DNA from: Mesonia profundi
Lineage (GTDB): Bacteria; Bacteroidota; Bacteroidia; Flavobacteriales; Flavobacteriaceae
Assembly (NCBI RefSeq): GCF_031085155.1
Contig: NZ_JAVHUL010000031.1
Coordinates: forward strand, 1-38,222
DNA length: 38,222 bases
Reading direction: 5' to 3'
Part shown: positions 10,517-37,251 of the stretch, piece by piece
Numbering within the stretch: position 1 is the first letter of the stretch
Layout of the letters: each line of letters begins with the position of its first letter
Notes under the pieces: model-generated
Seen by the model: the letters and a program-made list of their open reading frames with translations, nothing else
Told to the model about the DNA's origin: nothing
The model's database searches: none
Made by a program: the position numbers and the translations under genes

Positions 10517-10603
10517 GAAAAAAATGAATTTGAAGTTGAAATCGAAGGTAAAGTTGAAAAAGAAAATGAACGTGAAGTGGAAGTGGAAGGCGAAATTGAA
10601 GAC
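10517..10603 (+). repeat. Degenerate hexamer tract (GAANNN)n in an intergenic region
   Basis: For about 87 bases nearly every sixth base begins a GAA triplet (GAAGTTGAAATCGAAGG... GAAGTGGAAGTGGAAGG), so one frame reads as alternating Glu and another residue. No start codon precedes it and the frame closes soon after, so it is not a gene. A similar short stretch (ACTGATATTGAAATTGAG) reappears at about 10761-10778, on the far side of the dispersed repeat. The 352 bases between hmgA and the SBBP gene hold this tract, the dispersed repeat and a G19 run, and nothing else that I recognise. Confidence 0.55.
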
Positions 10604-34718: not shown

Positions 34719-35222
34719 TCATTGCACTTCTATTCTGCTTTTCAACAATGACATCTCATAGCAGGGAACAAAAGTTTTATCTAAGTCTGATTTGTAAACT
34801 ATAAAAATGTTATAGCGTTTAAAGGTCTTTTTTCTACTCTTTTCTAGATATTCATAATAGTAAGAATAATGTTTACTAAAAAATTGTCCTAGTTCTTTAA
34901 TATTAAAATCGTTGAGTTTTGCCATAAAAAGTTGAATGTCTTCAAGATTTCCTTTTCTTTTTAATTCTATAATCATTTCTTTAGGTAATAAATACTTGTA
35001 ATTATTATAAACACTATTTGGAATATGATTATGATAAAAACTCAAGTTCCAATTCATTTTTTCATTACTATTATTATAACGAAAATTTTTCGTCGTTTTC
35101 CCCTTTAAAAAAACAGTATCGTTCTCTCTATCTACTACTAAAAAAAGACTATTGGATACAGATTGTGCAAAAGTACATTTTACAAATAGTATGAATATAA
35201 TAATACTTATACAGTTTTTCAT
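34719..35222 (-). CDS. Small exported partner protein of the metallopeptidase (candidate inhibitor/immunity protein)
   Basis: A 167-residue exported protein. The start is taken as the ATG at 35222 (MKNCISIIIFILFVKCTFAQ), which gives a good signal peptide and lies five bases after the stop of the metallopeptidase gene; the ATG at 35240 overlaps that gene. The mature protein is Lys- and Tyr-rich (HYSYYYEYLEKSRKKTFKRYN) with no family I recognise. Tight coupling to the upstream peptidase-like gene and the similar position of a different small exported protein in the second module suggest an inhibitor or immunity role. That role is inference from layout. Confidence 0.6.
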   Translation of the reverse strand: MKNCISIIIFILFVKCTFAQSVSNSLFLVVDRENDTVFLKGKTTKNFRYNNSNEKMNWNLSFYHNHIPNSVYNNYKYLLPKEMIIELKRKGNLEDIQLFMAKLNDFNIKELGQFFSKHYSYYYEYLEKSRKKTFKRYNIFIVYKSDLDKTFVPCYEMSLLKSRIEVQ

Positions 35223-35227
35223 AGTAA

Positions 35228-36917
35228 TTAGTTTGGACAATTATGAGTGGTAGCAAAAATATATTGTTGATAGGCTTGATCTATTTCGTCTTTTTGATTT
35301 TGAGGCATATTTTGCCAAGCTTCTACATTATGGTTCTTTAAACCTTGCCAAGCTAAAGCTTCATAAAAATTATCAAGGTCAAGCTGGCCATTATTTGATA
35401 GGTAATTATAATCGCCCGTCATAACAGTCATATGGTAACTTTTTAATGCTTCTTTCATCGAATTAACATAGAGAGAAGCCATGGTCTCATGTGCTGGAGT
35501 TGGTTCAAAATTGTTATCTTCAAAACTATTATAAGTATTTCTGAAAATTAAATCATCATTTGAAGGTGGTTGAGTATTTAATTTCCTAAAAATATCGGCG
35601 TGAATATACTCGTGCAATAAAGTCCCTACCACTTGTAGAGCCCTTCTATTATTTGCTTTTGATGTACTTATCTCTATCTCAATTATATTATTAGTAGGGG
35701 TAAATTTAGTTTTTCCACTAACCTCCAAAGTATTACCATTTTCATCTGTATAGAAGACTTGGTCTTTTGATTTAATGTTTATACCAAATTCGGAATCATC
35801 TCCTTCAAAATTGGCTAATAAATCTTGTACAAAATTGTTACCTGACTCTTTTAAATGTTCATCTAAACATTTTTCTTTACCTACTAACTCATTTATAATC
35901 CTATCCTCAAATTCCACTTCTGCATCACTATTTTCACACTTAGCTTTTATAGCCTCTTTCCCAAAAGCTTCTTGCTCTGGTGTTGGGTTTTCTCCCAAAA
36001 ACATGTCTAACGGGATCGTCATATTGGCATTACTGGACAAGCATTGTTTTATATGATCTTCTTCTGCTTCATCTTCATAAGGTGCCAACTTTCTTATTAC
36101 GCTTTTCATGGGTAGATACATTGGTGAGGTTGCCTCGGTTCCTGGAGATGGGTTGCCTCCGCCACCTGTTCCAGTACCACCACCATTAAATGGAGATGGG
36201 TTAAAAGGGACATAAGGGCCAGTTGCCCCACCACTAGGACCTCCGCTAGAACTTATAGAACAATCTAAATAAGAAGAATGAGCTTCATGTGCTGGACAAG
36301 GACTGCCATCAGGATAGTAGCCTCCATTATGATTGCCTTCACCGCACTGCGTCATGATTTGCATTATACAATCAACGGAATTGGTTTTTGCTTCTTCATT
36401 TAGTGGGTAATAGGTGATATGTTCTCCCTTAAAATCAAAAGGTCCAGTTAATCCAAAACTATTAATCATTTTTTCTTCGGTATAGGGATATTCCAATAAA
36501 TAAATCCTATAAGATTTACCTCCATCTGAAGAGGCATATAAAATGTTTTCTAGTCCTACACCATCTGGCGTATTAGAAACGTGAAAGGTATAAGATTGGT
36601 AACTACCATCTTCAGTACTAATGTATTTGGCTATTTGGGTATGTAGGGTTAACTCTGTACGCCCCCCTTTACCCATTAAATTTTCTGGGGTGGTTAAAAG
36701 CTTAGAAAGCTGTTTTGCTAAATTAGCATTTTTTGAGAGGACTGAGCTTTCTACATATTCTATGTTAAAGCCACTTTCTATGGCATTTACTTGCGGGTCT
36801 CCTGCTTGTTCTTTAAAAGAGTCATCTTTCTCACAACCTGTCAAGCTTAAAATCAAGACCAGAAATAGCGATGTAGCGATGTAGCGATGTAGCGATGTAG
36901 CGATGTAATTTCCTCAT
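35228..36917 (-). CDS. Secreted lipoprotein with C-terminal HExxH metallopeptidase-like domain, phase-variable start
   Basis: A protein of about 560 residues in modules: signal peptide with lipobox LTGC, an N-terminal domain (to about residue 155, counted from the TTG at 36856), a Cys-bearing segment, a Gly/Ser/Pro-rich linker (about 203-240) and a C-terminal domain with HEYIH (415-419) and a candidate third zinc ligand H456. No peptidase family is named with confidence. The only suitable ATG (36917) is separated from the lipobox by five TAGCGATG repeats, which place it one base out of frame, so as written it would end after 20-odd codons. Three or six repeats give MRKLHRYIATSL...SLTGC, a normal lipoprotein signal. 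The TTG at 36856 is in frame but leaves only seven residues before the Cys. Confidence 0.78.
36866..36905. repeat. Five tandem copies of the octamer TAGCGATG, probable phase-variation tract
   Basis: Exactly 40 bases, five perfect copies (CATCGCTA on the coding strand), placed within the signal-peptide codons of the metallopeptidase-like lipoprotein. Eight is not a multiple of three, so every gain or loss of one copy changes the reading frame. Perfect identity between copies implies recent slippage. Confidence 0.95.
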
Positions 36918-37053: not shown

Positions 37054-37251
37054 CTAAAACTTCTGCTTAATTTTATCTACAATCGTCTGTGCTAATTTTT
37101 CTTTGCTTTCTATCGTCCAGCCTGCAATATGCGGACTTAGCAACACATGATCTGCTTCAATAAGATATTGAAAGGCTTTTGGAAGTTGATGCTGGTCACT
37201 AAAAAGATGCTCGAAGGAAGATTTTTCATATTCTAAGAAATCCAAACAGGC
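37054..37251 (-). pseudogene. 3'-terminal fragment of a D-2-hydroxyacid dehydrogenase gene (tail 2)
   Basis: The last 66 or so codons of a D-2-hydroxyacid dehydrogenase (SerA-like family, usually about 310-330 residues). Visible are ACLDFLEYEKSSF and LLSPHIAGWTIESKEKLAQT, which includes the family's catalytic histidine (SPHIAGWT). No start codon exists; upstream in frame there is a stop at 37258-37260. The break falls at the conserved A-C-L-D motif, where the sequence changes into the 3' end of the partner gene at 37233-37799. Hydroxyacid dehydrogenase function is lost in this copy. An 18-codon copy of the same end lies at 34400-34453. Confidence 0.85.

Follow-up and report, generated by a model that had tools for sequence, protein, structure and literature searches.

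The contig NZ_JAVHUL010000031.1 of Mesonia profundi (Flavobacteriaceae) was analysed over its full length of 38,222 nt, referred to below as the window. A gene on its minus strand carries a tandem octamer within the signal-peptide codons. The comparisons described here suggest, with a probability of about 0.82, that it encodes a polymorphic-toxin-like lipoprotein whose expression is switched by slipped-strand gain and loss of octamers and whose sequenced state is OFF. We conclude from the compared sequences that the gene belongs to a toxin-like lipoprotein family in which slippage switches appear to have evolved repeatedly and are mostly OFF. A previous reading made from the letters of the window (the sequence-only reading) had proposed the layout of a slipped-strand phase-variable lipoprotein. 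This layout is supported by comparisons with paralogues, a sister species and other relatives, and by two control families. The probable toxin-like nature of the protein with its differing payloads, and OFF as the apparent usual state of the repeat-bearing members, go beyond what that reading held.

Repeats were called with Tandem Repeats Finder (TRF). The array of TACATCGC (gene strand) occupies positions 36866–36907 on the minus strand, with period 8, 5.2 copies and 100% match. Adjacent octamer pairs were observed 4 times against 0 expected from 100 dinucleotide-preserving shuffles of the window, and hence the array is not due to chance. The ATG start (36915–36917, minus strand) leads into a frame that closes after 28 codons at the present copy number. 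The translation of this short OFF-state open reading frame (ORF; 36831–36917, minus strand, stop included) is MRKLHRYIATSLHRYIAISGLDFKLDRL, then stop. The hydrophobic stretch and the lipobox, ...LFLVLILSLTGCEKDD, sit in another frame, which has 561 open codons (35228–36913, minus strand) beyond the TGA overlapping the ATG and contains no ATG in range upstream of the lipobox. The lipobox cysteine (L-T-G-C; 36833–36835, minus strand) was identified by eye in this frame. At the present copy number this frame is not entered from any ATG. The ATG and the lipobox are joined by one residue class of the copy number modulo three, and five lies outside that class. The earliest listed start of the lipobox frame is the TTG at 36856, 7 residues ahead of the cysteine. 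The distance from ATG to cysteine is 16–27 codons in 74 in-frame relatives without a switchable repeat (where several ATGs were present, the one nearest to 22 codons was taken). Given that the ATG frame closes after 28 codons and that the TTG falls outside the range of the relatives, the present state is OFF. The sequence-only reading had described five perfect octamers between the only good ATG and the lipobox frame, an ATG frame stopping soon after the repeat, and a lipobox frame with a stop overlapping the ATG and no ATG of its own; all of this is borne out by the TRF call and the frames. Its arithmetic, by which five copies are out of frame and other copy numbers join the two parts, is correct for one class modulo three, and its OFF assignment agrees with the frames and the position of the TTG.

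From the cysteine on, the gene encodes a conserved N-terminal family domain (N-domain; mature residues 1 to about 223, 36167–36835, minus strand), delimited by profile match and alignment. The genome of the strain (G000) is a draft of 76 contigs and 3.08 Mb, and it contains two paralogues of this domain, on contigs C39 and C26. The C39 paralogue has 4.2 copies of the window octamer at the same position (17050–17083 of C39). The C26 paralogue carries an array there as well (11668–11702 of C26); its 4.2 copies are of TCACTACC, a unit that differs from the window octamer at two bases and is common to its four complete units. All three genes are out of frame at the array. A search of the whole genome found the window octamer (three copies) only on C25 and C39, and the TCACTACC octamer (two copies) only on C26. 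The window and C39 copies are identical at 184 of 200 nt ahead of the ATG and at 224 of 230 nt beyond the array, and the sole internal gap across about 390 aligned nt is exactly one octamer. Their N-domains are 74–78% identical, while their C-termini are not shared. An orphan tip behind the C39 gene (L006:6666–7484) is 88% identical to the window payload. A complete D-2-hydroxyacid dehydrogenase gene precedes the C39 copy, whereas in the window only the tail of this gene is present (37054–37245, minus strand); the window copy therefore looks like a duplicated cassette, with the dehydrogenase tail presumably carried along by the duplication. The ratio of nonsynonymous to synonymous substitution rates (dN/dS) over the first 190 codons of the N-domain equals 0.24, 0.31 and 0.40 in the three comparisons among these OFF paralogues. 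Thus they do not look long dead, and by this measure the N-domain is under purifying selection.

A collection of genome contigs was scanned for three octamers. An uncultured Mesonia sp. contig (L267, the same sequence as genome G014 of the genus set) carries an array at the orthologous spot, with 8.1 octamer copies behind the same dehydrogenase gene and a similar start, and its ATG is likewise out of frame with the lipobox. Here the array precedes a different, unrelated lipoprotein of 170 residues from the cysteine on, with no Pfam match (L267, 4797–5415; also L282). A thioredoxin-like gene lies behind this lipoprotein gene. The octamer gene is present at the dehydrogenase spot in 2 of the 16 genomes of the genus and absent in the other 14. 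Judging from these loci, the switch region seems to be separable from the payload, having been found with two of them.

The N-domain profile, built from 18 sequences (alignment A1), was matched by 54 of 397 genomes at family level and by 27 of 395 at order level (the strain's own genome is included and the two sets overlap). We read 111 members, namely 83 of the 88 family-level matches and 28 new ones from the order-level search; five partial matches (G238 C73, G238 C116, G162 C36, G130 C27 and G213 C21) were left out of the counting. Sorted by frame, 74 members are in frame without a repeat and one is in frame with a repeat. In 17 the gene is out of frame and the number of repeat units decides the frame. 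Of the other out-of-frame members, two have different repeats, three have a homopolymer alongside, and ten fall in neither group (two of these ten with a TTG at normal distance). The last four have no in-frame cysteine. In total, a switchable repeat (4–14 bp, in signal-peptide codons) is present in 18 of the 111 members, from 16 genomes and 12 genera, and 17 of these 18 genes are OFF. The units of 4, 5, 7, 8 and 14 bp recur at the same place and differ even within a genus (L124 vs L126; L118 vs L086). Two paralogues in G319 differ by two pentamers, being identical beyond the array and in the last 18 nt ahead of it and divergent further upstream. Loci L066, L072 and L225 are out of frame beside poly-T/poly-A tracts of 7 to 9 bases ahead of the cysteine, a possible homopolymer version of the switch.

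The placement of the repeats was assessed in the 80 first loci, where tandem repeats with units of 4–24 bp were counted in the 130 nt ahead of the cysteine and elsewhere in the same loci. There are 19 arrays before the cysteine, in 18 genes, and none of them has a triplet period, vs 29 of 44 elsewhere (Fisher test, p = 5e-7). The density is 1.83 arrays per kb before the cysteine and 0.126 per kb elsewhere, about a 14-fold difference. This set of 18 genes is not the one obtained by frame sorting: L122 (22 bp, no ATG found) belongs to the array scan only, and L227, to the frame sorting only. Members without an in-frame cysteine were left out, four in the frame sorting and three of those in the array scan. 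Two control sets were compared. All 30 loci of SusD-like lipoproteins have an in-frame ATG and only two repeats, with periods 6 and 9 and hence none non-triplet. The CarbopepD_reg_2 set was taken from the 16 repeat-bearing genomes, with 29 of 30 loci usable (L237 was dropped); 27 have an in-frame ATG, and the single repeat has period 6. Non-triplet repeats thus occur in 18 of 80 family loci vs 0 of 59 controls (p = 4e-5). Compared with one third ON expected under free drift, the excess of OFF genes gives p = 0.007 by gene and 0.014 by genome. This bias is suggestive and would fit either selection in stocks for the OFF state of a costly product or expression in rare cells only.

The payload of the window gene (35231–35980, minus strand) is predicted from sequence and fold matches to have a metallopeptidase fold of zincin-like type; it contains HExxH and one more His. 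A Peptidase_M91 match (E 0.076) was not relied on, and matches to pathogen metallopeptidases were ascribed to the common zincin fold. Among relatives, payloads above the Pfam cut-off are Tox-MPTase3 in L092 and Tae4 in L127, and overall a minority of payloads match known toxin or peptidoglycan-enzyme families. The family layout consists of one N-domain, unrelated C-terminal payloads and an orphan tip near a full gene. Downstream of the window gene there is an ORF of 167 aa with a signal-peptide-like start (34719–35222, minus strand), a putative immunity partner with no Pfam match. Among the 96 loci whose flank is long enough, 87 have a small same-strand downstream ORF, compared with 4 of 96 on the opposite strand, 700 nt on, and 12 of 1920 in shuffled sequences. 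As for the N-domain, comparison with PDB sequences gave no match up to E 1. Its structural model is poor (predicted local distance difference test score, pLDDT, 60) and matched no solved structure at E ≤ 0.001. A single-protein scan of the genome-contig collection found no relative, and none of the 20 members viewed individually has a Pfam match above the cut-off in this domain. The KN_motif match (5 of 78 members; 24.8 bits against a cut-off of 26, L092 residues 60–83) was rejected as too weak. VipB (PF05943) of the type VI secretion system was found in 0 of 20 genomes, with a model that may overlook Bacteroidota variants. The family, which occurs in Flavobacteriales, is an unnamed family of lipoproteins whose layout resembles that of polymorphic toxins.

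Several observations weigh against the proposed switch or against the toxin assignment. The copy-number evidence comes from paralogues and a sister species, with one genome per species. The 74 members that are simply in frame carry no such repeat, and the sister family f5, with 20 of its 23 loci in frame, yielded no switchable repeat; the switch is therefore limited to some lineages. Among the 28 later loci there is an array of period 12 (L228). Counted by genus, the OFF bias gives p = 0.054. The window payload itself is under the Pfam cut-off (SprT-like, 17.1 bits against 25.6), and most of the 78 members scanned have no Pfam family match at all. Finally, the C26 paralogue is also broken within its payload, with the N-domain and the payload in different frames (L011:5698–6471), which means that some copies are decaying.

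That second break bears on the possibility that these genes are pseudogenes, in which a functionless repeat grew after death and the frame is merely broken. Besides C26, such decay would account for the 17 of 18 switchable-repeat genes being out of frame and for the 15 further members out of frame (two with other repeats, three beside homopolymers, ten otherwise). However, the frame after the cysteine stays open for at least 490 codons in 12 of the 17 repeat-OFF genes and up to the contig end in two more; in the remaining three it is open for 252, 343 and 462 codons. The dN/dS values of 0.24–0.40 among the OFF paralogues, and of 0.24 between the OFF genes L124 and L126, also argue against decay, as do the avoidance of triplet periods before the cysteine and the roughly 14-fold array density there. 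We consider decay as the general explanation unlikely.

Two other explanations concern the start codon and the assembly. If translation of the protein always began at a non-ATG codon of the lipobox frame, the repeat would be harmless; the TTG 7 codons ahead of the cysteine is a candidate, in relatives L136 and L137 a TTG is the only start at normal distance, and two control genes lack an in-frame ATG. A lipoprotein signal peptide does not fit in 7 residues, though, and the 74 in-frame relatives place an ATG 16–27 codons ahead of the cysteine. A GTG within this range was seen only in L112, out of 16 repeat-OFF genes with starts listed (for the seventeenth, L227, ATG alone was considered). An alternative start is thus very improbable. 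Still harder to credit is a miscount, with an in-frame copy number altered during assembly. The genome is indeed a draft of 76 contigs with similar arrays at two loci, but common read lengths exceed the 42 bp of the array, copy numbers of 4, 5 and 8 are seen at distinct loci and in distinct species, and other assemblies, among them that of the single-contig genome G319, show OFF states as well.

Under the favoured explanation, a slippage switch, octamers would be gained or lost, reversibly in culture, by slipped-strand events in the stretch that separates the start codon from the hydrophobic part of the signal peptide. In two of the three copy-number classes translation would end early and no lipoprotein would be made, while in the third an ordinary lipoprotein signal peptide would be formed and export and lipidation would become possible. 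The switch would act on translation only, so that the transcript and the downstream partner gene would remain readable and OFF cells could stay immune to a product presumed toxic to other bacteria.

The octamer itself is not specific to the lipoprotein family, given its presence in other bacteria and in a satellite of G307. In the genome-contig collection it occurs in 19 stretches, of which 11 were looked at; apart from the Mesonia locus, those are in other bacteria. In Acidithiobacillus ferrianus (L273, 6922–6957) 4.5 copies of the window octamer lie close to where an 820-codon frame begins, in an apparent signal-peptide region and in frame with a Met. Such a repeat may be in independent use in another phylum. 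On several contigs of the metagenome-assembled genome M1805, titled only 'bacterium' (L263, L276 and L277), the window octamer forms arrays of about 7 to 12 copies. Among the 397 family genomes both octamer types (three copies) were confined to G000 and a single intergenic satellite of G307. The latter (C1:107640–107784) is a degenerate CACTACCT satellite between two long frames, neither of which resembles the lipoprotein family. Elsewhere in the window, positions 10521–10600 hold 1.9 copies of an imperfect tandem repeat with a 42-bp unit, a triplet period. Two more small ORFs, one of them lipoprotein-like (188 aa), are located at the contig edge (37233–38162) and may be partner genes of another payload lost past the contig end.

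A wider proposal, which we hold tentatively and at somewhat less than even odds, is that some Flavobacteriales maintain a lipoprotein-anchored interbacterial toxin arsenal that is silent in almost all cells through slippage switches evolved many times in signal-peptide codons. The immunity gene could stay on, so that OFF kin would tolerate rare ON cells, and the switch would be a reusable module if the payload differs behind a conserved region, as in the sister species. A family of toxin-like lipoproteins switched by repeats in Flavobacteriales would link slippage switching with bacterial competition, explain the broken look of such genes in assemblies, and provide a natural series of one-site switches with different units for relating unit and copy number to switching rate.

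Studies of phase variation have mostly dealt with pathogens evading host immunity and, where Bacteroidota are concerned, with DNA inversion. Simple-sequence contingency loci, as in Haemophilus and Neisseria, vary in phase by slipped-strand mispairing. The window gene resembles them in having an early non-triplet repeat in the ORF, a frame set by copy number and a predicted surface or secreted product. It differs in belonging to Flavobacteriales, in units of 4–14 bp that vary by species at one position of the family, and in its toxin-like payload. Such loci are described in PMC3711429, in the part available. In the accessible text of a 2025 review (PMC11868660) 'toxin' and 'flavobact' do not occur, and the Bacteroides content is mostly on inversions. 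Among the matches listed in a literature search, no paper was on repeat-switched polymorphic toxins in Bacteroidota by title or abstract opening, subscription literature being mostly outside the search. Within Flavobacteriales, the FSD genes of Ornithobacterium hominis are likewise a multi-gene family with putative phase variation, but according to the available part of PMC13183296 they are described as adhesins, and many of them have domains that bind fibronectin. The SitA lipoprotein polymorphic toxins of myxobacteria (PMC5562445 and PMC8546572, as far as their available text goes) share the lipoprotein anchor and the polymorphic payloads; they belong to another phylum, and the likeness drawn here is one of description. 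'Phase variation' is absent from the main text of PMC5562445, as available, and appears once in PMC8546572, in a reference title. In the accessible portions of the papers on MafB/MafI and other polymorphic toxins, the term is absent from PMC3482391 and occurs twice in PMC4287609, one of these being a reference title. These toxins, as described there, have a constant N-terminus, a swappable C-terminus, an immunity gene behind and orphan tips. The family studied here has a like layout with a putative immunity gene, and differs from them in having another N-domain and a putative switch located within the signal peptide.
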